A stretch of DNA of 64,000 nt. Origin: Arbacia lixula (Eukaryota > Echinodermata > Echinoidea > Arbacioida > Arbaciidae). The notes beneath the pieces were generated by a model, which saw nothing but the letters and a program-made list of their open reading frames with translations, did not search any database and was not told the origin of the DNA. The stretch is from assembly GCA_963669155.1 (NCBI GenBank), contig CAVLGW020000003.1, positions 186,001 through 250,000 of the forward strand. Direction: 5' to 3'. A program made the position numbers and the translations under genes. This document shows positions 1 through 31,690 of the stretch, one piece after another (positions within the stretch are counted from its first letter, which is position 1; every line of letters starts with the position of its first letter).

Positions 1-510
1 ATGATTTGCTGCATATATACCGCGACGCGCGCGGGATGCTAAGTAGAGGCGCTTGAAGGAGACACTTATTGCTAAAACATACCGTCTAAGGGAGACGTAT
101 CGGCAAATATATGTATATCTTACTGTGCTGGAGTATGATGACAAAATAGCTTTTCAGTGTTGTCTAGTCCATGTTGAACATGTCAAATAAGCATCCTTCG
201 ATACCATGTACAATTGATAGACATGAATTCGTCAATATGCCCTAGGTAATCACTTACTTGTCTGACAAAGTCTTGAAAATCCATAAAATAATGAAAAAGG
301 TTTAGATCCAATTTGTGAACCTAGGAATTATCCTCCTGCTGACACGTTCAACGAAGTAGATATTTCAAGCAATTTTAAATCTCTTTGTGAGTACGAGGTT
401 GAAAAACTCATTGCCAACCTCAGCAAAAATTCATGACCATTGGACCCAATACCCACAAAACTCCTCCTCTAATGTGTCGATGTACTCATTCTTATGTTCA
501 CATCATTGAT

Positions 511-541
<31 letters not shown>

Positions 542-1194
542 GACCGGTCACTTTCCAATGCAATGGGACAATGCTCTTATCACTCCGTTATTGAAAGAAA
601 CCTGTTCTTGATGCAGTCTTTAAGGAAACTTACGACCTGTAAGCAATATGAAATACATTACAAAGTTGGTGGAGGATGCAGCTACCCAACAGGTTATGGA
701 ACATCTTAGACGCAACTCTCTTTGGCCATGTACTCAATGTGCACTTAATTCTACAGCACTGATCCTGCACTGCTGAAACTGCTTTGCAAGGGTCACGATT
801 GGGTCCCATGTTATTTACAATGTACACTAGAGATCTCATTTCAAATGTTCAAACATGCTTTCCTGAGATCTCATGTCACTGCTATCATGATGACACACAG
901 CTTTATGTATCTTTCAGTCTCACTGAGCATTCTCAAGAATAAGCCGTATTATTAGTAGAAACGTGTATTGACTATATAAGTACGTGGATGGATGCTACAG
1001 AATAGGCTTATATACTAAATGATAGTAAAACTCGTGAAGTTGACGTCCAGTTCTTCTCTTCCGCATTGCCATTGTCGTCCATCTGAGATAGAAAAATCTA
1101 AGTTAATTCTATACGTTTGGAGACAAATCAAAGCAACCTAGCTGGCATAGCTACTCAACTTAGCTGTAACGCTTCGTCTGATGACGACTTGCGA

Positions 1195-2895
1195 ATGATT
1201 TGCTGCATATATACCGCGACGCGCGCGGGATGCTAAGTAGAGGCGCTTTAAGGAGACACTTATTGCTAAAATATACCGTCTAAGGGAGACGTATCGGCAA
1301 ATATATGTATATCTTACTGTGCTGGAGTATGATGACAAAATAGCTTTTCAGTGTTGTCTAGTCCATGTTGAACATGTCAAATAAGCATCCTTCGATACCA
1401 TGTACAATTAATAGACATGAATTCGTCAATATGCCCTAGGTAATCACTTACTTGTCTGACAAAGTCTTGAAAATCCATAAAATAATGAAAAACGTTTAGA
1501 TCCAATTTGTGAACCTAGGAATTATCCTCCTGCTGACACGTTCAACGAAGTAGATATTTCAAGCAATTTTAAATCTCTTCGTGAGTACGAGGTTGAAAAA
1601 CTCATTGCTAACCTCAGCAAAAATTCATGACTATTGGACCCAATACCCACAAAACTCCTCCTCTAATGTGTCGATGTACTCATTCTTATGTTCACATCAT
1701 TGATCAATCTCTCTCTCTCTCTCTCTCAACCGGTCACTTTCCAATGCAATGGGACAATGCTCTTATCACTCCGTTATTGAAAGAAACCGATTCTTGATGC
1801 AGTCTTTAAGGAAACTTACGACCTGTAAGCAATATGAAATACATATCAAAGTTGGTGGAGGATGCAGCTACCCAACAGGTTATGGAACATCTTAGACGCA
1901 ACTCTCTTTGGCCATGTACTCAATGTGCACACAATTCTACAGCACTGAACCTGCACTGCTGAAACTGCTTTGCAAGGGTCACGATTGGGTCCCATGTTAT
2001 TTACAATGTACACTAGAGATCTCATTTCAAATGTTCAAACATGCTTTCCTGAAATCCCATGTCACTGCTATCATGATGACACACAGCTTTATGTATCTTT
2101 CAGTCTCACTGAGCATTCTCAAGAATAAGCCGTATTATTAGTAGAAACGTGTATTGACTATATAAGTACGTGGATGGATGCTAGAGAATAGGCTTATATA
2201 CTAAATGATAGTAAAACTCGTGAAGTTGACGTCCAGTTCTTCTCTTCCGCATTGCCATTGTCGTCCATCTGAGATAGGAAAATCTAAGTTAATTCTATAC
2301 GTTTGGAGACAAATCAAAGCAACCTAGCTGGCATAGCTACTCAACTTAGCTGTAACGCTTCGTCTGATGACGACTTGCAAATGATTTGCTGCATATATAC
2401 CGCGACGCGCGCGGGATGCTAAGTAGAGGCGCTTTAAGGAGACACTTATTGCTAAAATATACCGTCTAAAGGAGACGTATCGGCAAATATATGTATATCT
2501 TACTGTGCTGGAGTATGATGACAAAATAGCTTTTCAGTGTTGTCTAGTCCATGTTGAACATGTCAAATAAGCATCCTTCGATACCATGTACAATTGATAG
2601 ACATGAATTCGTCAATATGCCCTAGGTAATCACTTACTTGTCTGACAAAGTCTTGAAAATCCATAAAATAATGAAAAACGTTTAGATCCAATTTGTGAAC
2701 CTAGGAATTATCCTCCTGCTGACACGTTCAACGAAGTAGATATTTCAAGCAATTTTAAATCTCTTTGTGAGTACGAGGTTGAAAAACTCATTGCCAACCT
2801 CAGCAAAAATTCATGACCATTGGACCCAATACCCACAAAACTCCTCCTCTAATGTGTCGATGTACTCATTCTTATGTTCACATCATTGATCAATC

Positions 2896-2929
<34 letters not shown>

Positions 2930-5900
2930 AACCGGTCACTTTCTAATGCAATGGGACAATGCTCTTATCACTCCGTTATTGAAAGAAACCGATTCTTGAT
3001 GCAGTCTTTAAGGAAACTTACGACCTGTAAGCAATATGAAATACATATCAAAGTTGGTGGAGGATGCAGCTACCCAACAGGTTATGGAACATCTTAGACG
3101 CAACTCTCTTTGGCCATGTACTCAATGTGCACACAATTCTACAGCACTGATCCTGCACTGCTGAAACTGCTTTGCAAGGGTCACGATTGAGTCCCATGTT
3201 ATTTACAATGTACACTAGAGATCTCATTTCAAATGTTCAAACATGCTTTCCTGAGATCTCATGTCACTGCTATCATGATGACACACAGCTTTATGTATCT
3301 TTCAGTCTCACTGAGCATTCTCAAGAATAAGCCGTATTATTAGTAGAAACGTGTATTGACTATATAAGTACGTGGATGGATGCTAGAGAATAGGCTTATA
3401 TACTAAATGATAGTAAAACTCGTGAAGTTGACGTCCAGTTCTTCTCTTCCGCATTGCCATTGTCGTCCATCTGAGATAGAAAAATCTAAGTTAATTCTAT
3501 ACGTTTGGAGACAAATCAAAGCAACCTAGCTGGCATAGCTACTCAACTTAGCTGTAACGCTTCGTCTGATGACGACTTGCGAATGATTTGCTGCATATAT
3601 ACCGCGACGCGCGCGGGATGCTAAGTAGAGGCGCTTTAAGGAGACACTTATTGCTAAAATATACCGTCTAAGGGAGACGTATCGGCAAATATATGTATAT
3701 CTTACTGTGCTGGAGTATGATGAAAAATAGCTTTTCAGTGTTGTCTAGTCCATGTTGAACATGTCAAATAAGCATCCTTCGATACCATGTACAATTGATA
3801 GACATGAATTCGTCAATATGCCCTAGGTAATCACTTACTTGTCTGACAAAGTCTTGAAAATCCATAAAATAATGAAAAACGTTTAGATCCAATTTGTGAA
3901 CCTAGGAATTATCCTCCTGCTGACACGTTCAACGAAGTAGATATTTCAAGCAATTTTAAATCTCTTTGTGAGTACGAGGTTGAAAAACTCATTGCTAACC
4001 TCAGCAAAAATTTATGACCATTGGACCCAATACCCACAAAACTTCTCCTCTAATGTGTCGATGTACTCATTCTTACGTTCACATCATTGATCAATCTCTC
4101 TCTCTCTCTCTCTCACTCAACCGGTCACTTTCCAATGCAATGGGACAATGCTCTTATCACTCCGTTATTGAAAGAAACCGATTCTTGATGCAGTCTTTAA
4201 GGAAACTTACGACCTGTAAGCAATATGAAATACATATCAAAGTTGGTGGAGGATGCAGCTACCCAACAGGTTATGGAACATCTTAGACGCAACTCTCTTT
4301 GGCCATGTACTCAATGTGCACACAATTCTACAGCACTGATCCTGCACTGCTGAAACTGCTTTGCAAGGGTCACGATTGGGTCCCATGTTATTTACAATGT
4401 ACACTAGAGATCTCATTTCAAATGTTCAAACATGCTTTCCTGAGATCTCATGTCACTGCTATCATGACACACAGCTTTATGTATCTTTCAGTCTCACTGA
4501 GCATTCTCAAGAATAAGCCGTATTATTAGTAGAAACGTGTATTGACTATATAAGTACGTGGATGGATGCTAGAGAATAGGCTTATATACTAAATGATAGT
4601 AAAACTCGTGAAGTTGACGTCCAGTTCTTCTCTTCCGCATTGCTATTGTCGTCCATCTGAGATAGAAAAATCTAAGTTAATTCTATACGTTTGGAGACAA
4701 ATCAAAGCAACCTAGCTGGCATAGCTACTCAACTTAGCTGTAACGCTTCGTCTGATGACGACTTGCGAATGATTTGCTGCATATATACCGCGACGCGCGC
4801 GGGATGCTAAGTAGAGGCGCTTTAAGGAGACACTTATTGCTAAAATATACCGTCTAAGGGAGACGTATCGGCAAATATATGTATATCTTACTGTGCTGGA
4901 GTATGATGAAAAATAGCTTTTCAGTGTTGCCTAGTCCATGTTGAACATGTCAAATAAGCATCCTTCGATACCATGTACAATTGATAGACATGAATTCGTC
5001 AATATGCCCTAGGTAATCACTTACTTGTCTGACAAAGTCTTGAAAATCCATAAAATAATGAAAAACGTTTAGATCCAATTTGTGAGCCTAGGAATTATCC
5101 TCCTGCTGACACGTTCAACGAAGTAGATATTTCAAGCAATTTTAAATCTCTTTGTGAGTACGAGGTTGAAAAACTCATTGCCAACCTCAGCAAAAATTTA
5201 TGACCATTGGACCCAATACCCACAAAACTCCTCCTCTAATGTGTCGATGTACTCATTCTTATGTTCACATCATTGATCAATCTCTCTCTCTCTCTCTCTC
5301 TCTCAACCGGTCACTTTCCAATGCAATGGGACAATGCTCTTATCACTCCGTTATTGAAAGAAACCGATTCTTGATGCAGTCTTTAAGGAAACTTACGACC
5401 TGTAAGCAATATGAAATACATATCAAAGTTGGTGGAGGATGCAGCTACCCAACAGGTTATGGAACATCTTAGACGCAACTCTCTTTGGCCATGTACTCAA
5501 TGTGCACACAATTCTACAGCACTGATCCTGCACTGCTGAAACTGCTTTGCAAGGGTCACGATTGGGTCCCATGTTATTTACAATGTACACTAGAGATCTC
5601 ATTTCAAATGTTCAAACATGCTTTCCTGAAATCTCATGTCACTGCTATCATGATGACACACAGCTTTATGTATCTTTCAGTCTCACTGAGCATTCTCAAG
5701 AATAAGCCGTATTATTAGTAGAAACGTGTATTGACTATATAAGTACGTGGATGGATGCTAGAGAATAGGCTTATATACTAAATGATAGTAAAACTCGTGA
5801 AGTTGACGTCCAGTTCTTCTCTTCCGCATTGCCATTGTCGTCCATCTGAGATAGAAAAATCTAAGTTAATTCTATACGTTTGGAGACAAATCAAAGCAAC

Positions 5901-7653
5901 CTAGCTGGCATAGCTACTCAACTTAGCTGTAACGCTTCGTCTGATGACGACTTGCGAATGATTTGCTGCATATATACCGCGACGCGCGCGGGATGCTAAG
6001 TAGAGGCGCTTTAAGGAGACACTTATTGCTAAAATATACCGTCTAAGGGAGACGTATCGGCAAATATATGTATATCTTACTGTGCTGGAGTATGATGACA
6101 AAATAGCTTTTCAGTGTTGTCTAGTCCATGTTGAACATGTCAAATAAGCATCCTTCGATACCATGTACAATTAATAGACATGAATTCGTCAATATGCCCT
6201 AGGTAATCACTTACTTGTCTGACAAAGTCTTGAAAATCCATAAAATAATGAAAAACGTTTAGATCCAATTTGTGAACCTAGGAATTATCCTCCTGCTGAC
6301 ACGTTCAACGAAGTAGATATTTCAAGCAATTTTAAATCTCTTCGTGAGTACAAGGTTGAAAAACTCATTGCTAACCTCAGCAAAAATGCATGACTATTGG
6401 ACCCAATACCCACAAAACTCCTCCTCTAATGTGTCGATGTACTCATTCTTATGTTCACATCATTGATCAATCTCTCTCTCTCTCTCTCTCAACCGGTCAC
6501 TTTCCAATGCAATGGGACAATGCTCTTATCACTCCGTTATTGAAAGAAACCGATTCTTGATGCAGTCTTTAAGGAAACTTACGACCTGTAAGCAATATGA
6601 AATACATATCAAAGTTGGTGGAGGATGCAGCTACCCAACAGGTTATGGAACATCTTAGACGCAACTCTCTTTGGCCATGTACTCAATGTGCACACAATTC
6701 TACAGCACTGAACCTGCACTGCTGAAACTGCTTTGCAAGGGTCACGATTGGGTCCCATGTTATTTACAATGTACACTAGAGATCTCATTTCAAATGTTCA
6801 AACATGCTTTCCTGAAATCTCATGTCACTGCTATCATGATGACACACAGCTTTATGTATCTTTCAGTCTCACTGAGCATTCTCAAGAATAAGCCGTATTA
6901 TTAGTAGAAACGTGTATTGACTATATAAGTACGTGGATGGATGCTAGAGAATAGGCTTCTATACTAAATGATAGTAAAACTCGTGAAGTTGACGTCCAGT
7001 TCTTCTCTTCCGCATTGCCATTGTCGTCCATCTGAGATAGGAAAATCTAAGTTAATTCTATACGTTTGGAGACAAATCAAAGCAACCTAGCTGGCATAGC
7101 TACTCAACTTAGCTGTAACGCTTCGTCTGATGACGACTTGCAAATGATTTGCTGCATATATACCGCGACGCGCGCGGGATGCTAAGTAGAGGCGCTTTAA
7201 GGAGACACTTATTGCTAAAATATACCGTCTAAAGGAGACGTATCGGCAAATATATGTATATCTTACTGTGCTGGAGTATGATGACAAAATAGCTTTTCAG
7301 TGTTGTCTAGTCCATGTTGAACATGTCAAATAAGCATCCTTCGATACCATGTACAATTGATAGACATGAATTCGTCAATATGCCCTAGGTAATCACTTAC
7401 TTGTCTGACAAAGTCTTGAAAATCCATAAAATAATGAAAAACGTTTAGATCCAATTTGTGAACCTAGGAATTATCCTCCTGCTGACACGTTCAACGAAGT
7501 AGATATTTCAAGCAATTTTAAATCTCTTTGTGAGTACGAGGTTGAAAAACTCATTGCCAACCTCAGCAAAAATTCATGACCATTGGACCCAATACCCACA
7601 AAACTCCTCCTCTAATGTGTCGATGTACTCATTCTTATGTTCACATCATTGAT

Positions 7654-7694
<41 letters not shown>

Positions 7695-10600
7695 AACCGG
7701 TCACTTTCCAATGCAATGGGACAATGCTCTTATCACTCCGTTATTGAAAGAAACCGATTCTTGATGCAGTCTTTAAGGAAACTTACGACCTGTAAGCAAT
7801 ATGAAATACATATCAAAGTTGGTGGAGGATGCAGCTACCCAACAGGTTATGGAACATCTTAGACGCAACTCTCTTTGGCCATGTACTCAATGTGCACACA
7901 ATTCTACAGCACTGATCCTGCACTGCTGAAACTGCTTTGCAAGGGTCACGATTGGGTCCCATGTTATTTACAATGTACACTAGAGATCTCATTTCAAATG
8001 TTCAAACATGCTTTCCTGAGATCTCATGTCACTGCTATCATGATGACACACAGCTTTATGTATCTTTCAGTCTCACTGAGCATTCTCAAGAATAAGCCGT
8101 ATTATTAGTAGAAACGTGTATTGACTATATAAGTACGTGGATGGATGCTAGAGAATAGGCTTATATACTAAATGATAGTAAAACTCGTGAAGTTGACGTC
8201 CAGTTCTTCTCTTCCGCATTGCCATTGTCGTCCATCTGAGATAGAAAAATCTAAGTTAATTCTATACGTTTGGAGACAAATCAAAGCAACCTAGCTGGCA
8301 TAGCTACTCAACTTAGCTGTAACGCTTCGTCTGATGACGACTTGCGAATGATTTGCTGCATATATACCGCGACGCGCGCGGGATGCTAAGTAGAGGCGCT
8401 TTAAGGAGACACTTATTGCTAAAATATACCGTCTAAGGGAGACGTATCGGCAAATATATGTATATCTTACTGTGCTGGAGTATGATGAAAAATAGCTTTT
8501 CAGTGTTGTCTAGTCCATGTTGAACATGTCAAATAAGCATCCTTCGATACCATGTACAATTGATAGACATGAATTCGTCAATATGCCCTAGGTAATCACT
8601 TACTTGTCTGACAAAGTCTTGAAAATCCATAAAATAATGAAAAACGTTTAGATCCAATTTGTGAACCTAGGAATTATCCTCCTGCTGACACGTTCAACGA
8701 AGTAGATATTTCAAGCAATTTTAAATCTCTTTGTGAGTACGAGGTTGAAAAACTCATTGCTAACCTCAGCAAAAATTTATGACCATTGGACCCAATACCC
8801 ACAAAACTTCTCCTCTAATGTGTCGATGTACTCATTCTTACGTTCACATCATTGATCAATCTCTCTCTCTCTCTCTCTCACTCAACCGGTCACTTTCCAA
8901 TGCAATGGGACAATGCTCTTATCACTCCGTTATTGAAAGAAACCGATTCTTGATGCAGTCTTTAAGGAAACTTACGACCTGTAAGCAATATGAAATACAT
9001 ATCAAAGTTGGTGGAGGATGCAGCTACCCAACAGGTTATGGAACATCTTAGACGCAACTCTCTTTGGCCATGTACTCAATGTGCACACAATTCTAGGGGA
9101 ACTGATCCTGCACTGCTGAAACTGCTTTGCAAGGGTCACGATTGGGTCCCATGTTATTTACAATGTACACTAGAGATCTCATTTCAAATGTTCAAACATG
9201 CTTTCCTGAGATCTCATGTCACTGCTATCATGACACACAGCTTTATGTATCTTTCAGTCTCACTGAGCATTCTCAAGAATAAGCCGTATTATTAGTAGAA
9301 ACGTGTATTGACTATATAAGTACGTGGATGGATGCTAGAGAATAGGCTTATATACTAAATGATAGTAAAACTCGTGAAGTTGACGTCCAGTTCTTCTCTT
9401 CCGCATTGCTATTGTCGTCCATCTGAGATAGAAAAATCTAAGTTAATTCTATACGTTTGGAGACAAATCAAAGCAACCTAGCTGGCATAGCTACTCAACT
9501 TAGCTGTAACGCTTCGTCTGATGACGACTTGCGAATGATTTGCTGCATATATACCGCGACGCGCGCGGGATGCTAAGTAGAGGCGCTTTAAGGAGACACT
9601 TATTGCTAAAATATACCGTCTAAGGGAGACGTATCGGCAAATATATGTATATCTTACTGTGCTGGAGTATGATGAAAAATAGCTTTTCAGTGTTGTCTAG
9701 TCCATGTTGAACATGTCAAATAAGCATCCTTCGATACCATGTACAATTGATAGACATGAATTCGTCAATATGCCCTAGGTAATCACTTACTTGTCTGACA
9801 AAGTCTTGAAAATCCATAAAATAATGAAAAACGTTTAGATCCAATTTGTGAGCCTAGGAATTATCCTCCTGCTGACACGTTCAACGAAGTAGATATTTCA
9901 AGCAATTTTAAATCTCTTTGTGAGTACGAGGTTGAAAAACTCATTGCCAACCTCAGCAAAAATTTATGACCATTGGACCCAATACCCACAAAACTCCTCC
10001 TCTAATGTGTCGATGTACTCATTCTTATGTTCACATCATTGATCAATCTCTCTCTCTCTCTCTCTCTCTCAACCGGTCACTTTCCAATGCAATGGGACAA
10101 TGCTCTTATCACTCCGTTATTGAAAGAAACCGATTCTTGATGCAGTCTTTAAGGAAACTTACGACCTGTAAGCAATATGAAATACATATCAAAGTTGGTG
10201 GAGGATGCAGCTACCCAACAGGTTATGGAACATCTTAGACGCAACTCTCTTTGGCCATGTACTCAATGTGCACACAATTCTACAGCACTGATCCTGCACT
10301 GCTGAAACTGCTTTGCAAGGGTCACGATTGGGTCCCATGTTATTTACAATGTACACTAGAGATCTCATTTCAAATGTTCAAACATGCTTTCCTGAAATCT
10401 CATGTCACTGCTATCATGATGACACACAGCTTTATGTATCTTTCAGTCTCACTGAGCATTCTCAAGAATAAGCCGTATTATTAGTAGAAACGTGTATTGA
10501 CTATATAAGTACGTGGATGGATGCTAGAGAATAGGCTTATATACTAAATGATAGTAAAACTCGTGAAGTTGACGTCCAGTTCTTCTCTTCCGCATTGCCA

Positions 10601-10723
10601 TTGTCGTCCATCTGAGATAGGAAAATCTAAGTTAATTCTATACGTTTGGAGACAAATCAAAGCAACCTAGCTGGCATAGCTACTCAACTTAGCTGTAACG
10701 CTTCGTCTGATGACGACTTGCGA
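1195..10723 (+). repeat. Four-unit higher-order repeat, two copies (4763-4766 bp period)
   Basis: Units at 1195, 2381, 3583, 4769 match, in order, units at 5958, 7144, 8348, 9535. Shared private variants include AATTAATAGAC in the first unit of each set, CTAAAGGAGAC and CTTGCAAATG in the second, ACTTCTCCTC plus CTCACTCAACC in the third, and GTGAGCCTAGG in the fourth. Spacings between partners are 4763, 4763, 4765 and 4766 bp. Such ordered variants arise by duplication of a multi-unit block. Confidence 0.88.
7300..8240 (+). pseudogene. Representative unit: decayed CR1/Jockey-like LINE RT fragment
   Basis: Read across frames, this unit shows recognisable LINE ORF2 pieces in order. They are a pre-RT stretch LSDKVLKIHKIM (about 7400-7440), a finger segment EYEVEKLIANLS then PLDPIP (about 7535-7600), NLSLS running into the (CT)n tract and STGHFPMQW (about 7655-7715), LRPVSN and SKLVEDA (about 7785-7830), STDPALLKL (about 7905-7935), GPMLFTMYTRDL (about 7953-7988), the catalytic-site remnant YHDDTQLYVSFS (8036-8071) and DYISTWMD and NDSKT further on. 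The block with the AFDTVDH-like aspartate and GVPQGS motif is missing between ALLKL and GPMLF, with a frame change there. In family members the catalytic box is normally F/Y-A-D-D, so the site is mutated. All units share this design; several lack one codon of the YHDD box. It is a fossil, not an active enzyme. Confidence 0.85.
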
Positions 10724-13605: not shown

Positions 13606-13644
<39 letters not shown>

Positions 13645-16600: not shown

Positions 16601-19600
16601 ACAAATCAAAGCAACCTAGCTGGCATAGCTACTCAACTTAGCTGTAACGCTTCGTCTGATGACGACTTGCGAATGATTTGCTGCATATATACCGCGACGC
16701 GCACGGGATGCTAAGTAGAGGCGCTTTAAGGAGACACTTATTGCTAAAATATACCGTCTAAGGGAGACGTATCGGCAAATATATGTATATCTTACTGTGC
16801 TGGAGTATGATGAAAAATAGCTTTTCAGTGTTGTCTAGTCCATGTTGAACATGTCAAATAAGCATCCTTCGATACCATGTACAATTGATAGACATGAATT
16901 CGTCAATATGCCCTAGGTAATCACTTACTTGTCTGACAAAGTCTTGAAAATCCATGAAATAATGAAAAACGTTTAGATCCAATTTGTGAACCTAGGAATT
17001 ATCCTCCTGCTGACACGTTCAACGAAGTAGATATTTCAAGCAATTTTAAATCTCTTTGTGAGTACGAGGTTGAAAAACTCATTGCCAACCTCAGCAAAAA
17101 TTCATGACCATTGGACCCAATACCCACAAAACTCCTCCTCTAATGTGTCGATGTACTCATTCTTATGTTCACATCATTGATCAATCTCTCTCTCTCTCTC
17201 TCTCTCAACCGGTCACTTTCCAATGCAATGGGACAATGCTCTTATCACTCCGTTATTGAAAGAAACCGATTCTTGATGCAGTCTTTAAGGAAACTTACGA
17301 CCTGTAAGCAATATGAAATACATATCAAAGTTGGTGGAGGATGCAGCTACCCAACAGGTTATGGAACATCTTAGACGCAACTCTCTTTGGCCATGTACTC
17401 AATGTGCACACAATTCTACAGCACTGAACCTGCACTGCTGAAACTGCTTTGCAAGGGTCACGATTGGGTCCCATGTTATTTACAATGTACACTAGAGATC
17501 TCATTTCAAATGTTCAAACATGCTTTCCTGAAATCTCATGTCACTGCTATCATGATGACACACAGCTTTATGTATCTTTCAGTCTCACTGAGCATTCTCA
17601 AGAATAAGCCGTATTATTAGTAGAAACGTGTATTGACTATATAAGTACGTGGATGGATGCTAGAGAATAGGCTTATATACTAAATGATAGTAAAACTCGT
17701 GAAGTTGACGTCCAGTTCTTCTCTTCCGCATTGCCATTGTCGTCCATCTGAGATAGGAAAATCTAAGTTAATTCTATACGTTTGGAGACAAATCAAAGCA
17801 ACCTAGCTGGCATAGCTACTCAACTTAGCTGTAACGCTTCGTCTGATGACGACTTGCGAATGATTTGCTGCATATATACCGCGACGCGCGCGGGATGCTA
17901 AGTAGAGGCGCTTTAAGGAGACACTTATTGCTAAAATATACCGTCTAAAGGAGACGTATCGGCAAATATATGTATATCTTACTGTGCTGGAGTATGATGA
18001 CAAAATAGCTTTTCAGTGTTGTCTAGTCCATGTTGAACATGTCAAATAAGCATCCTTCGATACCATGTACAATTGATAGACATGAATTCGTCAATATGCC
18101 CTAGGTAATCACTTACTTGTCTGACAAAGTCTTGAAAATCCATAAAATAATGAAAAACGTTTAGATCCAATTTGTGAACCTAGGAATTATCCTCCTGCTG
18201 ACACGTTCAACGAAGTAGATATTTCAAGCAATTTTAAATCTCTTTGTGAGTACGAGGTTGAAAAACTCATTGCCAACCTCAGCAAAAATTCATGACCATT
18301 GGACCCAATACCCACAAAACTCCTCCTCTAATGTGTCGATGTACTCATTCTTATGTTCACATCATTGATCAATCTCTCTCTCTCTCTCTCTCGACCGGTC
18401 ACTTTCCAATGCAATGGGACAATGCTCTTATCACTCCGTTATTGAAAGAAACCGATTCTTGATGCAGTCTTTAAGGAAACTTACGACCTGTAAGCAATAT
18501 AAAATACATATCAAAGTTGGTGGACGATGCAACTACCCAACAGGTTATGGAACATCTTAGACGCAACTCTCTTTGGCCATGTACTCAATGTGCACACAAT
18601 TCTACAGCACTGAACCTGCACTGCTGAAACTGCTTTGCAAGGGTCACGATTGGGTCCCATGTTATTTACAATGTACACTAGAGATCTCATTTCAAATGTT
18701 CAAACATGCTTTCCTGAGATCTCATGTCACTGCTATCATGATGACACACAGCTTTATGTATCTTTCAGTCTCACTGAGCATTCTCAAGAATAAGCCGTAT
18801 TATTAGTAGAAACGTGTATTGACTATATAAGTACGTGGATGGATGCTCGAGAATAGGCTTAGATACTAAATGATAGTAAAACTCGTGAAGTTGACGTCCA
18901 GTTCTTCTCTTCCGCATTGCCATTGTCGTCCATCTGAGATAGAAAAATCTAAGTTAATTCTATACGTTTGGAGACAAATCAAAGCAACCTAGCTGGCATA
19001 GCTACTCAACTTAGCTGTAACGCTTCGTCTGATGACGACTTGCGAATGATTTGCTGCATATATACCGCGACGCGCGCGGGATGCTAAGTAGAGGCGCTTT
19101 AAGGAGACACTTATTGCTAAAATATACCGTCTAAGGGAGACGTATCGGCAAATATATGTATATCTTACTGTGCTGGAGTATGATGAAAAATAGCTTTTCA
19201 GTGTTGTCTAGTCCATGTTGAACATGTCAAATAAGCATCCTTCGATACCATGTACAATTGATAGACATGAATTCGTCAATATGCCCTAGGTAATCACTTA
19301 CTTGTCTGACAAAGTCTTGAAAATCCATAAAATAATGAAAAAGGTTTAGATCCAATTTGTGAACCTAGGAATTATCCTCCTGCTGACACGTTCAACGAAG
19401 TAGATATTTCAAGCAATTTTAAATCTCTTTGTGAGTACGAGGTTGAAAAACTCATTGCCAACCTCAGCAAAAATTCATGACCATTGGACCCAATACCCAC
19501 AAAACTCCTCCTCTAATGTGTCGATGTACTCATTCTTATGTTCACATCATTGATCAATCTCTCTCTCTCTCTCTCTCTCTCTTTCAACCGGTCACTTTCC

Positions 19601-22600
19601 AATGCAATGGGACAATGCTCTTATCACTCCGTTATTGAAAGAAACCGATTCTTGATGCAGTCTTTAAGGAAACTTACGACCTGTAAGCAATATGAAATAC
19701 ATATCAAAGTTGGTGGAGGATGCAGCTACCCAACAGGTTATGGAACATCTTAGACGCAACTCTCTTTGGCCATGTACTCAATGTGCACACAATTCTAAAG
19801 CACTGATCCTGCACTGCTGAAACTGCTTTGCAAGGGTCACGATTGGGTCCCATGTTATTTACAATGTACACTAGAGATCTCATTTAAAATGTTCAAACAT
19901 GCTTTCCTGAGATCTCATGTCACTGCTATCATGATGACACACAGCTTTATGTATCTTTCAGTCTCACTGAGCATTCTCAAGAATAAGCCGTATTATTAGT
20001 AGAAACGTGTATTGACTATATAAGTACGTGGATGGATGCTAGAGAATAGGCTTATATACTAAATGATAGTAAAACTCGTGAAGTTGACGTCCAGTTCTTC
20101 TCTTCCGCATTGCCATTGTCGTCCATCTGAGATAGAAAAATCTAAGTTAATTCTATACGTTTGGAGACAAATCAAAGCAACCTAGCTGGCATAGCTACTC
20201 AACTTAGCTGTAACGCTTCGTCTGATGACGACTTGCGAATGATTTGCTGCATATATACCGCGACGCGCGCGGGATGCTAAGTAGAGGCGCTTTAAGGAGA
20301 CACTTATTGCTAAAATATACCGTCTAAGGGAGACGTATCGGCAAATATATGTATATCTTACTGTGCTGGAGTATGATGAAAAATAGCTTTTCAGTGTTGT
20401 CTAGTCCATGTTGAACATGTCAAATAAGCATCCTTCGATACCATGTACAATTGATAGACATGAATTCGTCAATATGCCCTAGGTAATCACTTACTTGTCT
20501 GACAAAGTCTTGAAAATCCATAAAATAATGAAAAACGTTTAGATCCAATTTGTGAACCTAGGAATTATCCTCCTGCTGACACGTTCAACGAAGTAGATAT
20601 TTCAAGCAAATTTAAATCTCTTTGTGAGTACGAGGTTGAAAAACTCATTGCTAACCTCAGCAAAAATTCATGACCATTGGACCCAATACCCACAAAACTT
20701 CTCCTCTAATGTGTCGATGTACTCATTCTTATGTTCACATCATTGATCAATCTCTCTCTCTCTCTCTCTCACTCAACCGGTCACTTTCCAATGCAATGGG
20801 ACAATGCTCTTATCACTCCGTTATTGAAAGAAACCGATTCTTGATGCAGTCTTTAAGGAAACTTACGACCTGTAAGCAATATGAAATACATATCAAAGTT
20901 GGTGGAGGATGCAGCTACCCAACAGGTTATGGAACATCTTAGACGCAACTCTCTTTGGCCATGTACTCAATGTGCACACAATTCTACAGCACTGATCCTG
21001 CACTGCTGAAACTGCTTTGCAAGGGTCACGATTGGGTCCCATGTTATTTACAATGTACACTAGAGATCTCATTTCAAATGTTCAAACATGCTTTCCTGAG
21101 ATCTCATGTCACTGCTATCATGATGACACACAGCTTTATGTATCTTTCAGTCTCACTGAGCATTCTCAAGAATAAGCCGTATTATTAGTAGAAACGTGTA
21201 TTGACTATATAAGTACGTGGATGGATGCTAGAGAATAGGCTTATATACTAAATGATAGTAAAACTCGTGAAGTTGACGTCCAGTTCTTCTCTTCCGCATT
21301 GCCATTGTCGTCCATCTGAGATAGAAAAATCTAAGTTAATTCTATACGTTTGGAGACAAATCAAAGCAACCTAGCTGGCATAGCTACTCAACTTAGCTGT
21401 AACGCTTCGTCTGATGACGACTTGCGAATGATTTGCTGCATATATACCGCGACGCGCGCGGGATGCTAAGTAGAGGCGCTTTAAGGAGACACTTATTGCT
21501 AAAATATACCGTCTAAGGGAGACGTATCGGCAAATATATGTATATCTTACTGTGCTGGAGTATGATGAAAAATAGCTTTTCAGTGTTGTCTAGTCCATGT
21601 TGAACATGTCAAATAAGCATCCTTCGATACCATGTACAATTGATAGACATGAATTCGTCAATATGCCCTAGGTAATCACTTACTTGTCTGACAAAGTCTT
21701 GAAAATCCATAAAATAATGAAAAAGGTTTAGATCCAATTTGTGAACCTAGGAATTATCCTCCTGCTGACACGTTCAACGAAGTAGATATTTCAAGCAATT
21801 TTAAATCTCTTTGTGAGTACGAGGTTGAAAAACTCATTGCCAACCTCAGCAAAAATTCATGACCATTGGACCCAATACCCACAAAACTCCTCCTCTAATG
21901 TGTCGATGTACTCATTCTTATGTTCACATCATTGATCAATCTCTCTCTCTCTCTCTCTCTCTCAACCGGTCACTTTCCAATGCAATGGGACAATGCTCTT
22001 ATCACTCCGTTATTGAAAGAAACCGATTCTTGATGCAGTCTTTAAGGAAACTTACGACCTGTAAGCAATATGAAATACATATCAAAGTTGGTGGAGGATG
22101 CAGCTACCCAACAGGTTATGGAACATCTTAGACGCAACTCTCTTTGGCCATGTACTCAATGTGCACACAATTCTACAGCACTGAACCTGCACTGCTGAAA
22201 CTGCTTTGCAAGGGTCACGATTGGGTCCCATGTTATTGACAATGTACACTAGAGATCTCATTTCAAATGTTCAAACATGCTTTCCTGAGATCTCATGTCA
22301 CTGCTATCATGATGACACACAGCTTTATGTATCTTTCAGTCTCACTGAGCATTCTCAAGAATAAGCCGTATTATTAGTAGAAACGTGTATTGACTATATA
22401 AGTACGTGGATGGATGCTAGAGAATAGGCTTAGATACTAAATGATAGTAAAACTCGTGAAGTTGACGTCCAGTTCTTCTCTTCCGCATTGCCATTGTCGT
22501 CCATCTGAGATAGAAAAATCTAAGTTAATTCTATACGTTTGGAGACAAATCAAAGCAACCTAGCTGGCATAGCTACTCAACTTAGCTGTAACGCTTCGTC

Positions 22601-22616
22601 TGATGACGACTTGCGA
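10724..22616 (+). repeat. Five-unit higher-order repeat, two copies (~5949 bp period)
   Basis: Units at 10724, 11911, 13097, 14298 match units at 16673, 17860, 19046, 20239 with spacings 5949, 5949, 5949 and 5941. Private variants are CGCACGGG and ATCCATGAAATAA in the first, and CGACCGGTC, a GGACGATGCAACTACCC change and ATGCTCGAGAATAG in the second. The period also reaches back, since 8348 and 9535 pair with 14298 and 15484. The fifth unit (15484 against 21428) is only partly matched, so the second copy breaks down towards its right end. Confidence 0.85.
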
Positions 22617-24316
22617 ATGATTTGCTGCATATATACCGCGACGCGCGCGGGATGCTAAGTAGAGGCGCTTTAAGGAGACACTTATTGCTAAAATATACCG
22701 TCTAAGGGAGACGTATCGGCAAATATATGTATATCTTACTGTGCTGGAGTATGATGAAAAATAGCTTTTCAGTGTTGTCTAGTCCATGTTGAACATGTCA
22801 AATAAGCATCCTTCGATACCATGTACAATTGATAGACATGAATTCGTCAATATGCCCTAGGTAATCACTTACTTGTCTGACAAAGTCTTGAAAATCCATA
22901 AAATAATGAAAAAGGTTTAGATCCAATTTGTGAACCTAGGAATTATCCTCCTGCTGACACGTTCAACGAAGTAGATATTTCAAGCAATTTTAAATCTCTT
23001 TGTGAGTACGAGGTTGAAAAACTCATTGCCAACCTCAGCAAAAATTCATGACCATTGGACCCAATACCCACAAAACTCCTCCTCTAATGTGTCGATGTAC
23101 TCATTCTTATGTTCACATCATTGATCAATCTCTCTCTCTCTCTCTCTCTCTCTCAACCGGTCACTTTCCAATGCAATGGGACAATGCTCTTATCACTCCG
23201 TTATTGAAAGAAACCGATTCTTGATGCAGTCTTTAAGGAAACTTACGACCTGTAAGCAATATGAAAGTCATATCAAAGTTGGTGGAGGATGCAGCTACCC
23301 AACAGGTTATGGAACATCTTAGACGCAACTCTCTTTGGCCATGTACTCAATGTGCACACAATTCTACAGCACTGATCCTGCACTGCTGAAACTGCTTTGC
23401 AAGGGTCACGATTGGGTCCCATGTTATTTACAATGTACACTAGAGATCTCATTTCAAATGTTCAAACATGCTTTCCTGAAATCTCATGTCACTGCTATCA
23501 TGATGACACACAGCTTTATGTATCTTTCAGTCTCACTGAGCATTCTCAAGAATAAGCCGTATTATTAGTAAAAACGTGTATTGACTATATAAGTACGTGG
23601 ATGGATGCTAGAGAATAGGCTTAGATACTAAATGATAGTAAAACTCGTGAAGTTGACGTCCAGTTCTTCTCTTCCGCATTGCCATTGTCGTCCATCTGAG
23701 ATAGAAAAATCTAAGTTAATTCTATACGTTTGGAGACAAATCAAAGCAACCTAGCTGGCATAGCTACTCAACTTAGCTGTAACGCTTCGTCTGATGACGA
23801 CTTGCGAATGATTTGCTGCATATATACCGCGACGCGCGCGGGATGCTAAGTAGAGGCGCTTTAAGGAGACACTTATTGCTAAAATATACCGTCTAAGGGA
23901 GACGTATCGGCAAATATATGTATATCTTACTGTGCTGGAGTATGATGAAAAATAGCTTTTCAGTGTTGTCTAGTCCATGTTGAACATGTCAAATAAGCAT
24001 CCTTCGATACCATGTACAATTGATAGACATGAATTCGTCAATATGCCCTAGGTAATCACTTACTTGTCTGACAAAGTCTTGAAAATCCATAAAATAATGA
24101 AAAAGGTTTAGATCCAATTTGTGAACCTAGGAATTATCCTCCTGCTGACACGTTCAACGAAGTAGATATTTCAAGCAATTTTAAATCTCTTTGTGAGTAC
24201 GAGGTTGAAAAACTCATTGCCAACCTCAGCAAAAATTCATGACCATTGGACCCAATACCCACAAAACTCCTCCTCTAATGTGTCGATGTACTCATTCTTA
24301 TGTTCACATCATTGAT

Positions 24317-24351
<35 letters not shown>

Positions 24352-26700
24352 GGTCACTTTCCAATGCAATGGGACAATGCTCTTATCACTCCGTTATTGA
24401 AAGAAACCGATTCTTGATGCAGTCTTTAAGGAAACTTACGACCTGTAAGCAATATGAAATACATATCAAAGTTGGTGGAGGATGCAGCTACCCAACAGGT
24501 TATGGAACATCTTAGACGCAACTCTCTTTGGCCATGTACTCAATGTGCACACAATTCTACAGCACTGATCCTGCACTGCTGAAACTGCTTTGCAAGGGTC
24601 ACGATTGGGTCCCATGTTATTTACAATGTACACTAGAGATCTCATTTCAAATGTTCAAACATGCTTTCCTGAGATCTCATGTCACTGCTATCATGATGAC
24701 ACACAGCTTTATGTATCTTTCAGTCTCACTGAGCATTCTCAAGAATAAGCCGTATTATTAGTAGAAACGTGTATTGACTATATAAGTACGTGGATGGATG
24801 CTAGAGAATAGGCTTATATACTAAATGATAGTAAAACTCGTGAAGTTGACGTCCAGTTCTTCTCTTCCGCATTGCCATTGTCGTCCATCTGAGATAGGAA
24901 AATCTAAGTTAATTCTATACGTTTGGAGACAAATCAAAGCAACCTAGCTGGCATAGCTACTCAACTTTGCTGTAACGCTTCGTCTGATGACGACTTGCGA
25001 ATGATTTGCTGCATATATACCGCGACGCGCGCGGGATGCTAAGTAGAGGCGCTTTAAGGAGACACTTATTGCTAAAATATACCGTCTAAGGGAGACGTAT
25101 CGGCAAATATATGTATATCTTACTGTGCTGGAGTATGATGAAAAATAGCTTTTCAGTGTTGTCTAGTCCATGTTGAACATGTCAAATAAGCATCCTTCGA
25201 TACCATGTACAATTGATAGACATGAATTCGTCAATATGCCCTAGGTAATCACTTACTTGTCTGACAAAGTCTTGAAAATCCATAAAATAATGAAAAAGGT
25301 TTAGATCCAATTTGTGAACCTAGGAATTATCCTCCTGCTGACACGTTCAACGAAGTAGATATTTCAAGCAATTTTAAATCTCTTTGTGAGTACGAGGTTG
25401 AAAAACTCATTGCCAACCTCAGCAAAAATTCATGACCATTGGACCCAATACCCACAAAACTCCTCCTCTAATGTGTCGATGTACTCATTCTTATGTTCAC
25501 ATCATTGATCAATCTCTCTCTCTCTCTCTCTCTCTCTCAACCGGTCACTTTCCAATGCAATGGGACAATGCTCTTATCACTCCGTTATTGAAAGAAACCG
25601 ATTCTTGATGCAGTCTTTAAGGAAACTTACGACCTGTAAGCAATATGAAATACATATCAAAGTTGGTGGAGGATGCAGCTACCCAACAGGTTATGGAACA
25701 TCTTAGACGCAACTCTCTTTGGCCATGTACTCAATGTGCACACAATTCTACAGCACTGAACCTGCACTGCTGAAACTGCTTTGCAAGGGTCACGATTGGG
25801 TCCCATGTTATTGACAATGTACACTAGAGATCTCATTTCAAATGTTCAAACATGCTTTCCTGAGATCTCATGTCACTGCTATCATGATGACACACAGCTT
25901 TATGTATCTTTCAGTCTCACTGAGCATTCTCAAGAATAAGCCGTATTATTAGTAGAAACGTGTATTGACTATATAAGTACGTGGATGGATGCTAGAGAAT
26001 AGGCTTAGATACTAAATGATAGTAAAACTCGTGAAGTTGACGTCCAGTTCTTCTCTTCCGCATTGCCATTGTCGTCCATCTGAGATAGAAAAATCTAAGT
26101 TAATTCTATACGTTTGGAGACAAATCAAAGCAACCTAGCTGGCATAGCTACTCAACTTAGCTGTAACGCTTCGTCTGATGACGACTTGCGAATGATTTGC
26201 TGCATATATACCGCGACGCGCGCGGGATGCTAAGTAGAGGCGCTTTAAGGAGACACTTATTGCTAAAATATACCGTCTAAGGGAGACGTATCGGCAAATA
26301 TATGTATATCTTACTGTGCTGGAGTATGATGAAAAATAGCTTTTCAGTGTTGTCTAGTCCATGTTGAACATGTCAAATAAGCATCCTTCGATACCATGTA
26401 CAATTGATAGACATGAATTCGTCAATATGCCCTAGGTAATCACTTACTTGTCTGACAAAGTCTTGAAAATCCATAAAATAATGAAAAAGGTTTAGATCCA
26501 ATTTGTGAACCTAGGAATTATCCTCCTGCTGACACGTTCAACGAAGTAGATATTTCAAGCAATTTTAAATCTCTTTGTGAGTACGAGGTTGAAAAACTCA
26601 TTGCCAACCTCAGCAAAAATTCATGACCATTGGACCCAATACCCACAAAACTCCTCCTCTAATGTGTCGATGTACTCATTCTTATGTTCACATCATTGAT

Positions 26701-26735
<35 letters not shown>

Positions 26736-27893
26736 GGTCACTTTCCAATGCAATGGGACAATGCTCTTATCACTCCGTTATTGAAAGAAACCGATTCTTG
26801 ATGCAGTCTTTAAGGAAACTTACGACCTGTAAGCAATATGAAAGTCATATCAAAGTTGGTGGAGGATGCAGCTACCCAACAGGTTATGGAACATCTTAGA
26901 CGCAACTCTCTTTGGCCATGTACTCAATGTGCACACAATTCTACAGCACTGATCCTGCACTGCTGAAACTGCTTTGCAAGGGTCACGATTGGGTCCCATG
27001 TTATTTACAATGTACACTAGAGATCTCATTTCAAATGTTCAAACATGCTTTCCTGAAATCTCATGTCACTGCTATCATGATGACACACAGCTTTATGTAT
27101 CTTTCAGTCTCACTGAGCATTCTCAAGAATAAGCCGTATTATTAGTAAAAACGTGTATTGACTATATAAGTACGTGGATGGATGCTAGAGAATAGGCTTA
27201 TATACTAAATGATAGTAAAACTCGTGAAGTTGACGTCCAGTTCTTCTCTTCCGCATTGCCATTGTCGTCCATCTGAGATAGGAAAATCTAAGTTAATTCT
27301 ATACGTTTGGAGACAAATCAAAGCAACCTAGCTGGCATAGCTACTCAACTTAGCTGTAACGCTTCGTCTGATGACGACTTGCGAATGATTTGCTGCATAT
27401 ATACCGCGACGCGCGCGGGATGCTAAGTAGAGGCGCTTTAAGGAGACACTTATTGCTAAAATATACCGTCTAAGGGAGACGTATCGGCAAATATATGTAT
27501 ATCTTACTGTGCTGGAGTATGATGAAAAATAGCTTTTCAGTGTTGTCTAGTCCATGTTGAACATGTCAAATAAGCATCCTTCGATACCATGTACAATTGA
27601 TAGACATGAATTCGTCAATATGCCCTAGGTAATCACTTACTTGTCTGACAAAGTCTTGAAAATCCATAAAATAATGAAAAACGTTTAGATCCAATTTGTG
27701 AACCTAGGAATTATCCTCCTGCTGACACGTTCAACGAAGTAGATATTTCAAGCAATTTTAAATCTCTTTGTGAGTACGAGGTTGAAAAACTCATTGCCAA
27801 CCTCAGCAAAAATTCATGACCATTGGACCCAATACCCACAAAACTCCTCCTCTAATGTGTCGATGTACTCATTCTTATGTTCACATCATTGAT

Positions 27894-27928
<35 letters not shown>

Positions 27929-28577
27929 GGTCACTTTCCAATGCAATGGGACAATGCTCTTATCACTCCGTTATTGAAAGAAACCGATTCTTGATGCAGT
28001 CTTTAAGGAAACTTACGACCTGTAAGCAATATGAAATACATATCAAAGTTGGTGGAGGATGCAGCTACCCAACAGGTTATGGAACATCTTAGACGCAACT
28101 CTCTTTGGCCATGTACTCAATGTGCACACAATTCTACAGCACTGAACCTGCACTGCTGAAACTGCTTTGCAAGGGTCACGATTGGGTCCCATGTTATTGA
28201 CAATGTACACTAGAGATCTCATTTCAAATGTTCAAACATGCTTTCCTGAGATCTCATGTCACTGCTATCATGATGACACACAGCTTTATGTATCTTTCAG
28301 TCTCACTGAGCATTCTCAAGAATAAGCCGTATTATTAGTAGAAACGTGTATTGACTATATAAGTACGTGGATGGATGCTAGAGAATAGGCTTAGATACTA
28401 AATGATAGTAAAACTCGTGAAGTTGACGTCCAGTTCTTCTCTTCCGCATTGCCATTGTCGTCCATCTGAGATAGAAAAATCTAAGTTAATTCTATACGTT
28501 TGGAGACAAATCAAAGCAACCTAGCTGGCATAGCTACTCAACTTAGCTGTAACGCTTCGTCTGATGACGACTTGCGA
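21428..28577 (+). repeat. Approximate three-unit higher-order repeat (~3575 bp period)
   Basis: Units at 21428 and 22617 recur at 25001 and 26192. Markers are TTATTGACAATG in units 21428, 25001 and 27385, and GAAAGTCATATC with TTAGTAAAAACG in units 22617 and 26192. Unit 27385 carries the first marker again without the second, so the block is a recombined series and not a clean triplication. Confidence 0.7.
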
Positions 28578-29086
28578 ATGATTTGCTGCATATATACCGC
28601 GACGCGCGCGGGATGCTAAGTAGAGGCGCTTTAAGGAGACACTTATTGCTAAAATATACCGTCTAAGGGAGACGTATCGGCAAATATATGTATATCTTAC
28701 TGTGCTGGAGTATGATGAAAAATAGCTTTTCAGTGTTGTCTAGTCCATGTTGAACATGTCAAATAAGCATCCTTCGATACCATGTACAATTGATAGACAT
28801 GAATTCGTCAATATGCCCTAGGTAATCACTTACTTGTCTGACAAAGTCTTGAAAATCCATAAAATAATGAAAAAGGTTTAGATCCAATTTGTGAACCTAG
28901 GAATTATCCTCCTGCTGACACGTTCAACGAAGTAGATATTTCAAGCAATTTTAAATCTCTTTGTGAGTACGAGGTTGAAAAACTCATTGCCAACCTCAGC
29001 AAAAATTCATGACCATTGGACCCAATACCCACAAAACTCCTCCTCTAATGTGTCGATGTACTCATTCTTATGTTCACATCATTGAT

Positions 29087-29121
<35 letters not shown>

Positions 29122-29766
29122 GGTCACTTTCCAATGCAATGGGACAATGCTCTTATCACTCCGTTATTGAAAGAAACCGATTCTTGATGCAGTCTTTAAG
29201 GAAACTTACGACCTGTAAGCAATATGAAATACATATCAAAGTTGGTGGAGGATGCAGCTACCCAACAGGTTATGGAACATCTTAGACGCAACTCTCTTTG
29301 GCCATGTACTCAATGTGCACACAATTCTACAGCACTGATCCTGCACTGCTGAAACTGCTTTGCAAGGGTCACGATTGGGTCCCATGTTATTTACAATGTA
29401 CACTAGAGATCTCATTTCAAATGTTCAAACATGCTTTCCTGAGATCTCATGTCACTGCTATCATGATGACACACAGCTTTATGTATCTTTCAGTCTCACT
29501 GAGCATTCTCAAGAATAAGCCGTATTATTAGTAGAAACGTGTATTGACTATATAAGTACGTGGATGGATGCTAGAGAATAGGCTTATATACTAAATGATA
29601 GTAAAACTCGTGAAGTTGACGTCCAGTTCTTCTCTTCCGCATTGCCATTGTCGTCCATCTGAGATAGATAAAAGTTAATTCTATACGTTTGGAGACAAAT
29701 CAAAGCAAGCTAGCTGGCATAGCTGCTCAACTTAGCTGTAACGCTTTGTCTGATGACGACTTGCGA

Positions 29767-29889
29767 ATGATTTGCTGCATATATACCGCGACGCGCGCGG
29801 GATGCTAAGTAGAGGCGTTTTAAGGAGACACTTATTGCTAAAATATACCGCGCAAGGGAGACCTCTACTCAGCATCCCGCGCGCGTCGC
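29767..29889 (+). repeat. Truncated edge unit ending in a 27-bp inverted repeat
   Basis: The last unit runs normally to about 29850, then departs from the consensus at TACCGCGCAAGGGAGACC. Positions 29863-29889 are the reverse complement of 29788-29814 of the same unit with one mismatch, leaving a 48-nt loop. The unit before it is also unusually diverged near 29666-29735 (short deletion, AAGCTAGC, GCTGCTCAAC). This marks the right boundary of the array. Confidence 0.85.
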
Positions 29890-31200: not shown

Positions 31201-31214
31201 ATTGATTCCAGTTT

Positions 31215-31690
31215 TCATTACAGATACACATCCTATTCATGGTATAAAGTGCTGAATATAACATAAAATGTCCAAGCGCTCGCATTATGAGCTACGTATC
31301 CTATTCATGAATTCCCACAAAATTAGTCTTTGGCGTGTCTTCTTTTCGGGTCAGTATATAAAATATTTTCAGCTCGCGCTTTGTTCGCATTACTTGTTTT
31401 CATAGTTCACGCATCCTATTCATGATTCCAAAGATTGCTTACGATATTCTGTATTTCAAGTATAAATCGCGCTTGCATGACTTGCTTTTAAGATACCCAT
31501 CCTTATCATGGTTACAAAAGTACCTTCTAAATTCCCGTTTTATGGTCTAATCTTTATAATTGCTTATAAAAAAAAACGTGCTTATACTGTTTAGTGTTCA
31601 GGTAGTAAAATCGGACACTTCGTGCTCACATCAATTGTTTAATAAGATACCAATCGTGTTCATGATTACAAAAATGATTATACACAATCA
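31215..31690 (+). repeat. Degenerate tandem repeat with TCCTATTCATG core
   Basis: A core like ATCCTATTCATG followed by an A-rich stretch recurs near 31228, 31298, 31410, 31499 and 31655 at spacings of roughly 70-155 bp, with increasing divergence. Some copies are followed by CTCGC(A/G)TT-type words. It looks like an old minisatellite or repeated fragments of one dispersed element. Confidence 0.45.

Follow-up and report, generated by a model that had tools for sequence, protein, structure and literature searches.

A tandem array in the sea urchin Arbacia lixula as the probable core of a giant DNA transposon

In this study, we describe a tandem array of ~1.19-kb units in Arbacia lixula that is very probably the expandable core of a giant DNA transposon, which measures 40 to 93 kb in 13 paired cases and is probably non-autonomous. 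The window (the whole stretch of DNA analysed, 64,000 nucleotides) holds the right-hand portion of the array (1..29862, + strand), which sits within a 93.3-kb element at positions 141195 to 234474 of its contig, C25; the right end of the element lies near window position 48474. As assembled, the array extends leftward beyond the window to C25:151006, giving 64,857 bp and 54 full units, or about 70% of the element. The preliminary description had placed a satellite at 1..29862. The tandem array and its right edge stand; its left start does not, since the array runs on to C25:151006, and the enclosing feature is an element that reaches window position ~48474.

The repeat unit and the arms of the element

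Within the window, 26 anchors spaced 1,186 to 1,204 bp apart, all on the + strand, define 25 full units and a 96-bp stub. These anchors bear out the earlier count of 25 units of ~1.19 kb. The decayed LINE reverse transcriptase is borne out by a Pfam RVT_1 match (31.2 bits, cut-off 29.6; E = 2.3e-7) in one of the two read-through pieces of the unit; the second piece had no Pfam match. In an example unit (1196..2381, + strand), the right-subterminal copy stands at the start, and much of the remainder is a piece of decayed LINE sequence that includes a (TC)n tract. The first ~130 to 150 bp of the unit are a copy of the right subterminal segment of the element, the source of the first ~130 bp lying at 47848..47980 (+ strand; 80 to 84% identity; score 130, null maximum 28); comparison of the unit start with the left end of the element gave no match (score 24, null maximum 31). 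This subterminal-derived start holds AAGGAGACAC near position 55 and AGGGAGACG near position 88. The unit joins this right-subterminal copy to a LINE fragment that has a related counterpart in the left arm. The earlier view of a LINE-built unit therefore holds for the decayed reverse transcriptase and fails for ~130 bp that are the element's own subterminal DNA, for which reason a pure LINE satellite was dropped as the identity of the unit. The start of the unit had no matches in viral contigs, a search from which records of this genome were possibly excluded, and an Rfam search returned none.

The right arm (29863..48474, + strand) could be aligned to one C5 copy across 94% of its length and, in places, to the second C5 copy as well as to C3 and C4 copies. 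It is about 17 to 19 kb long across copies; the left arm is 9.8 to 10.9 kb in the C25 and C5b copies and longer, through an insertion, in C5a. Substitutions in the aligned arm parts amount to 1.0 to 2.1% between copies. A 27-bp inverted repeat (26/27; arms at 29788-29814 and 29863-29889) spans the right edge of the array at 29788..29889, where a strong hairpin can form; a template switch was considered as its origin. Further along, the right arm carries two distinct LINE reverse transcriptase fossils (33237..34475 and 39712..41375, both + strand), each present in the C5a copy too, and a LINE fragment related to the reverse transcriptase part of the unit (37654..37811, - strand; 74 to 78% identity). 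A stretch of ~1 kb (41603..42631, - strand) was unaligned in C5a, through either an insertion here or a deletion there, and contains the greater part of an ORF identified as gag-like by eye, with no Pfam match. Domain matches in the 11 element ORFs scanned were to LINE domains, together with a few weak chance matches; neither a transposase nor a Rep/helicase domain was found in these 11.

Termini, empty site and copies across the genome

At the right terminus (48409..48474, - strand), the inverted terminal motif reads TGGATCCCGCATTAGGGAGACAT from the outside in and is accompanied by an (AT)n run within which homology between copies stops. The motif, TGGATCC[A/C]GC[A/G]TTAGGGAGACAT, lies inverted at both ends of the C25 element, with 21 of its 23 positions alike between the two ends; it is short, and the match further inward is weak (score 41, null maximum 33). 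Because (TA)n adjoins it at both ends, a target-site duplication is not readable. The right ends of three further copies were located within 2.5- to 3-kb stretches picked by arm length, and in all six copies whose right end was read the homology stops in the same (AT)n run; left ends were read in two copies. The octamer RGGAGACA occurs five times per terminal kb, three times in the remaining 26.4 kb of the arms, 54 times in the array and not at all in 30.7 kb outside the element; four subterminal RGGAGACA/TGTCTCCY motifs lie at 48346..48417. The outer flanks are unrelated between copies. In the flank beyond the element (48475..64000), positions 48477-48732 carry on from the left flank in a paralogue, C25:128391-128833; this is an empty site, with 15 bp between the two flanks (84% and 82% identity) and without (TA)n.

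Genome-wide, the terminal motif gave 54 matches (25 + 29), 51 of them exact and three with one mismatch, and a reversed-pattern control gave none. From the match table, 26 of these ends form 13 facing left/right pairs, 40.4 to 93.2 kb apart, and arrays were verified in five of the 13; no ends of the same type lie within 100 kb of each other. For the other 28 (17 of them on contigs up to C22 and 11 from C26 on), no partner lies within 100 kb. The family is dispersed across many large contigs; ends are found, for example, at 1.96, 4.2, 13.6 and 24.5 Mb of the 29.8-Mb C4 and at 3.4, 7.4, 19.0 and 20.9 Mb of the 29.2-Mb C5.

Thirty loci were retrieved, all of which were scanned for full-length units and nine compared with the arms of the element. 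The copies have in common the left arm, the right arm, the inverted terminal motif beside (TA)n and the array edges. The junction of unit position 94 with the right arm (window 29862/29863) recurs in all seven loci with such data, at one of which (C4:24.38 Mb) repeats resume beyond the right-arm sequence, and the left array edge falls at unit position 781 in four of four. From locus to locus, the compared arrays vary in how many units they hold, in their length variants and in unit order. The average distance between units is smaller within one array than between arrays (mean differences of 13.8 within C25, 15.9 within C5b and 25.5 between arrays), with within-array differences (up to 28 and 35) overlapping those between arrays (from 17).

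Block structure of the array

Units of the window array differ on average at 11.1 positions per pair (0.89% with the TC tract masked), and neighbouring units are no closer than other pairs (adjacent mean 11.0). Near-identical runs occur instead at unit offsets of 5, 4 and 3: U07-U13 and U12-U18 show seven differences across 7,063 bp, U02-U05 and U06-U09 differ at two to four positions per whole unit, and U18-U20 and U21-U23 are identical across 2,178 bp. The longest colinear run, of seven units, was reached in none of 5000 shuffles of unit order (mean 1.88, maximum 5), in agreement with the 4-, 5- and ~3-unit blocks reported earlier, and the description of a homogenising tandem array with block structure is upheld. 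By arithmetic on the unit comparison, the 5-unit block is present in 2.2 copies and the 4-unit block in 1.8; with each block in about two copies, "higher-order" is a generous label for this array. In the unit tree, five of 19 inner branches are well supported, and distant units are grouped, matching the distance matrix. The longest run in the C5b array, of five units, equals the shuffle maximum of 5, and its unit order is not beyond chance. The preliminary description had named homologous arrays with random unit order as evidence against its reading; half of this was found, in that homologous arrays exist and differ in order.

Exchange was simulated with two joint criteria, a ratio of adjacent to mean difference of at least 0.95 and a distinct run of at least 6. 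Neither single-unit exchange nor block sizes of 1-2 satisfied both in any of 300 runs each. Block sizes of 1-3 did so in 3, 1 and 2 of 100 runs, sizes of 1-5 in 7, 7 and 15 of 100, sizes of 2-6 in 20, 26 and 28 of 100, and sizes of 3-5 in 17%, 26% and 17% of 69, 70 and 75 runs. Against the model, neighbouring units resemble each other less often in the observed arrays than on average in any simulated setting.

Origin of the array and comparison with known systems

Several other origins of the array were weighed. The preliminary description suggested a centromeric or pericentromeric higher-order satellite, in keeping with a kilobase-scale, homogenised tandem array with blocks. Element ends are dispersed over C4 and C5, however, with several sites per contig, megabases apart, the arrays at the compared loci are bounded by transposon arms, ORFs with EGF and SRCR domains lie in the flank outside the element ~26 kb from the array edge (55.6-58.9 kb of the window), and the CENP-B-box core pattern had no match in the window; the centromere reading was dropped on account of the arm-bounded arrays and the several end sites, and we consider it extremely unlikely. 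It is also very unlikely that the true array has few units and was expanded in assembly. Exact repeats in the array reach 3,323 bp and are difficult for short reads, but unit variants differ by copy, the blocks carry variants of their own and a genome-wide count gave 791 junction matches.

The copying of a large satellite-bearing chromosomal segment between sites without a transposase would account for the very large size, the LINE fossils at positions common to copies, the lack of a transposase in the 11 ORFs and the 28 unpaired ends. Such segmental duplication is nonetheless very improbable in the face of six right ends that terminate in the same (AT)n run, 51 exact terminal motifs, 13 facing pairs and a paralogous empty site. 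Somewhat less improbable, though still unlikely, is a Helitron or Helentron-type (HINE-like) element whose central tandem array overgrew and which spread by rolling circle rather than by cut-and-paste. Bivalves and other animals provide well-described cases of such elements with central tandem arrays, and a strong hairpin is possible at the array edge. Canonical Helitron ends read 5' TC and 3' CTRR, which the ends of this element do not, although Helentrons lack them; the same motif is inverted at both ends, with further inverted subterminal motifs, and a Rep/helicase domain is absent from the 11 scanned ORFs.

Like elements with terminal inverted repeats (TIRs), the giant DNA transposon proposed here bears inverted repeats at its two ends, recurs with the same termini at sites whose flanks differ, and has a paralogous empty site. 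Mobilisation may depend on a transposase from another element, acting through recognition of the terminal and subterminal RGGAGACA motifs, and the array would then grow and shrink after insertion by unequal exchange or similar multi-unit events, from which the unit blocks would result. By analogy with what has been proposed for Galileo and Tetris, the repeated subterminal motif might perhaps once have aided transposition, before the array overgrew. A broader proposal, to which we give an even chance, is that of a family of giant (40- to 93-kb) TIR transposons, non-autonomous and laden mainly with a satellite derived from themselves; transposition would seed arrays on many chromosomes, higher-order patterns would then arise in each array separately, and extra binding sites for the transposase or a host factor may be provided by the repeated subterminal motif. 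If true, this would be a natural replicate experiment in higher-order repeat formation, with many arrays from near-identical seeds, and would bear on long-standing questions, the spread of satellites from one chromosome to another and the beginnings of higher-order repeats. One element family appears to bring the same seed array to many loci; the arms are 1 to 2% diverged in the compared copies, yet size, unit variants and order already vary among the arrays, and array growth could therefore be compared across replicates of known context.

Among the literature matches listed, mostly from outside subscription papers, none describes a LINE-containing array inside a giant TIR transposon. The LINE-derived satellites chicken HinfI (CR1 ORF2), PROsat and Pvc 20, listed in PMC9659126, likewise include a portion of a LINE ORF2 in the unit; in the present unit, the LINE piece is joined to transposon subterminal DNA, and the array lies inside the transposon. 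The Helitron-associated satellites of Crassostrea gigas are also dispersed through the genome inside mobile elements, but the available portion of PMC8268682 gives largest arrays of 9 to 48 monomers for most satellites inspected, and the class there is Helitron, whereas the ends described here resemble inverted repeats.

The Tetris foldback transposon of Drosophila virilis, with its TIR-220 satellite, carries tandem repeats within a TIR transposon (PMC4079207). As far as the excerpts of that report extend, its repeat is ~80% identical to the terminal domain (over 37 bp, against ~130 bp of subterminal DNA here), its arrays reach satellite length (up to 66 copies, against 54 full units) and a transposase-encoding element was not found there either. 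The ~220-bp units of Tetris lie inside the terminal repeats; here, units of ~1.19 kb that include a LINE fragment form one central array in an element 40 to 93 kb long. In Galileo (P superfamily, Drosophila), internal repeats are said in the same excerpts to add transposase-binding sites, to which the subterminal motif repeated in our units may correspond; Galileo differs in its known THAP-domain transposase and its long, internally repetitive TIRs (PMC4079207). The element described here, with its single central array and short end motif, lacks the long, tandem repeat-holding terminal repeats of foldback elements and shares with Tetris and Galileo internal repeats that copy the terminal or subterminal region, here on the right subterminal side. 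The principle seen in these two elements, by which terminal DNA becomes tandem repeats, would extend to elements near 100 kb.

The tandem array and its unit

By anchoring on a single motif, the window was found to begin within the tandem array, and 26 anchor sites gave 25 full units of 1,186 to 1,204 bp, which bears out the 25 units of about 1.19 kb in the preliminary description; a 96-bp terminal stub closes the array at base 29862. This right edge agrees with the earlier placement at 1 to 29862, but the left limit does not, since the window is C25:186001-250000 and the array reaches C25:151006 on the same contig, for a total of 64,857 bp and 54 full units. The first window unit (window 1-1194) carries three adjacent-base double substitutions that are private among the 25 window units.

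Window units differed by a mean of 11.1 (approximately 0.89% with the TC tract masked), and adjacent units resembled each other no more closely than units paired at random (11.0 versus 11.1). Instead, near-identity was observed in runs of units spaced 5, 4, and 3 apart: the longest colinear run was 7 units, reached by none of 5000 unit-order shuffles, and the longest exact repeat spanned 3,323 bp, with its copies offset by 5,949 bp (five units). The blocks proposed earlier are present; however, by arithmetic there are only 2.2 copies of the 5-unit block and 1.8 of the 4-unit block, and the array is thus better described as successive tandem duplications than as an established higher-order repeat.

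The proposed origin of the unit from a dead LINE reverse transcriptase was upheld in part. Two read-through pieces of the unit were scanned against Pfam. One matched the reverse transcriptase family (E = 2.3e-7) and, below threshold, GST_C_6 (0.0058); the other gave no match. From its motifs, we take this reverse transcriptase to lie near the L2/CR1 group. ORFs of a related LINE fossil lie upstream at C25:145769-147835 (RVT_1 at E = 5.3e-6 and Exo_endo_phos at E = 0.0018, each scoring too low for the curated cut-off), and this fossil matches the unit in two stretches (84% and 87%). The first ~130 bp of the unit, however, is non-LINE DNA whose counterpart lies near one end of a mobile element, in its subterminal region. 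It matches window 47848-47980 at 80 to 84%, with a score of 130 against the right subterminal region (null maximum, 28); there was no match to the left subterminal region (score 24; null, 31).

The element around the array

In the 607-Mb assembly (590 contigs), the 58-base unit junction had 448 + 343 matches and its reversed control had 0; among the first 100 matches listed, it was placed on C3, C4, and C5. Two C5 arrays fetched with their flanks (C5a and C5b) shared both their left edge (unit position 781) and their right edge (unit position 94) with the window's array, and had arms homologous to those of the window's array, with 1.0 to 2.1% substitution divergence across aligned stretches and 64 to 94% aligned. 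Thirty loci were retrieved on C3 and C4, and 9 of them were also compared with the arms. On C3 both the left array edge and the unit-94/right-arm junction were found, and the junction was present as well at C4:1.94 Mb, C4:4.21 Mb, and C4:24.38 Mb. Among all loci with data for the feature in question, the right junction occurred in 7/7 and the left edge in 4/4. At C4:24.38 Mb (L029, C4:24377804-24380861), repeats start again after ~366 bp of right arm, so the array edge itself has been absorbed into the array there. We conclude that the array lies inside a mobile element.

On the left, homology begins at C25:141195 and C5:7382993 with a (TA)n run and then CCACTGGATCCAGCGTTAGGGAGACAT; the inverse of this terminal motif lies at window 48409-48431, adjoining (AT)n. 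C5a homology ends inside that (AT)n run, and C5b terminates there too, with its final 446 bp 99.8% identical; outside the element, C5b and the window shared one 116-bp match (76%) ~2.5 kb beyond the end. For three further copies, the right end was found in 3/3 stretches of 2.5 to 3 kb picked from arm length, and their outer DNA was unlike the window flank, (AT)n runs excepted. A terminal-motif search of the assembly gave 54 matches, 51 of them exact (control, 0). Manual pairing of the match table joined 26 ends into 13 left/right pairs that face each other across 40.4 to 93.2 kb, none under 40 kb, on C3, C4, C5 (four), C10, C11 (two), C18, C19 (two), and C25; no partner inside 100 kb was available for 17 ends located on contigs up to C22 or for 11 located on C26 and later contigs. 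Array presence was confirmed in 5 of the 13 pairs. An insertion-site paralogue that lacks the element, at C25:128391-128833, has the two flanks (left, 84%; right, 82%) 15 bp apart and contains no (TA)n, so that the (TA)n beside the element may be either target or element sequence.

The motif RGGAGACA or its complement occurs five times in each of the element's first and last kilobases, 3 times in the remaining 26.4 kb of arms, and 54 times in the array; it is absent from 30.7 kb of DNA outside the element. Transposase sites often look like such repeats by both ends, and these are putative sites.

Several other features of the right arm were noted. A ~1-kb inverted repeat pair (window 42897-43874 and 46303-47283; 85%) is also present in C5a. 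A perfect 201-bp tandem duplication lies within a LINE fossil at window 34282-34684; an overlapping alignment suggests that C5a holds this segment once. Degenerate telomere-like AACCCT repeats occupy window 47378-47448, ~1 kb inward of the right end, and in the C3 copy ~1.4 kb of extra sequence, at C3:21339497-21340870, splits the right subterminal segment at window 47933/47934. Beyond the element, a tandem palindromic ~22-bp unit with TTCTTGATATCAAGAA occurs at window 62617-63030 and 56869-57033. Imperfect palindromes at 49311-49682 and 51397-52032 (84% and 83% self-complementary) are possibly foldback or MITE-type insertions, and repeated segments surrounding EGF- and SRCR-domain ORFs (53369-54608 and 55706-56764) possibly represent the tandem duplication of a receptor gene close to the insertion. 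Those ORFs, together with genome size and contigs near 30 Mb, would be compatible with a sea star or another echinoderm.

Divergence and proposed growth of the arrays

Units differed by a mean of 13.8 within C25, 15.9 within C5b, and 25.5 between arrays, with overlapping ranges (up to 28 and 35 within C25 and C5b, respectively; from 17 between arrays). C5b units measure ~1,193 to 1,195 bp; C5a has mostly shortened units, with spacings of 404, 251, 544, and 709 to 717 bp, and the order 709, ~403-409, 404, 251 appears twice. In this comparison the C25 colinear run of 6 exceeded the shuffle maximum of 3, whereas the C5b run of 5 equaled the maximum of 500 shuffles and was not beyond chance.

In neutral simulations, a ratio of adjacent to mean difference of at least 0.95 together with a distinct colinear run of at least 6 arose in 0/300 runs with single-unit gain or loss and in 20, 26, and 28 of 100 with 2- to 6-unit events; no simulated setting matched, on average, the complete absence of similar neighbours. 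Divergence is greater at the array's right edge than inside its last unit, with 13 mismatches over the final 239 columns; homogenisation of the middle by exchange would be expected to leave such a pattern.

Proposed mobilisation and known relatives

From the ends, the copies, and one empty site, we think that the element would have been mobilised by a transposase supplied from elsewhere; the enzyme itself was not seen, and the 11 element ORFs scanned contained no transposase, their matches being to LINE domains apart from a few weak ones attributed to chance. After arrival, we think, on the basis of the array comparison and the simulations, that every array would have been altered through unequal exchange or a related process acting on several units at once. 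A subterminal segment may have turned into the repeat because additional binding sites favoured transposition, as has been proposed for Tetris and Galileo (PMC4079207).

Earlier reports describe satellites from LINE ORF2 (chicken HinfI, PROsat, and Pvc 20; PMC9659126), Helitron-borne satellites scattered throughout the oyster genome (PMC8268682, PMC12628747), arrays that expand within plant retrotransposons (PMC7004042), and higher-order repeats beyond primates (PMC5615363, PMC7859515, PMC3694981). Among the matches listed from the open-licence literature, there was no description of a TIR element near 100 kb made mostly of its own satellite, and no such element is known to us. The nearest relative in principle is Tetris.
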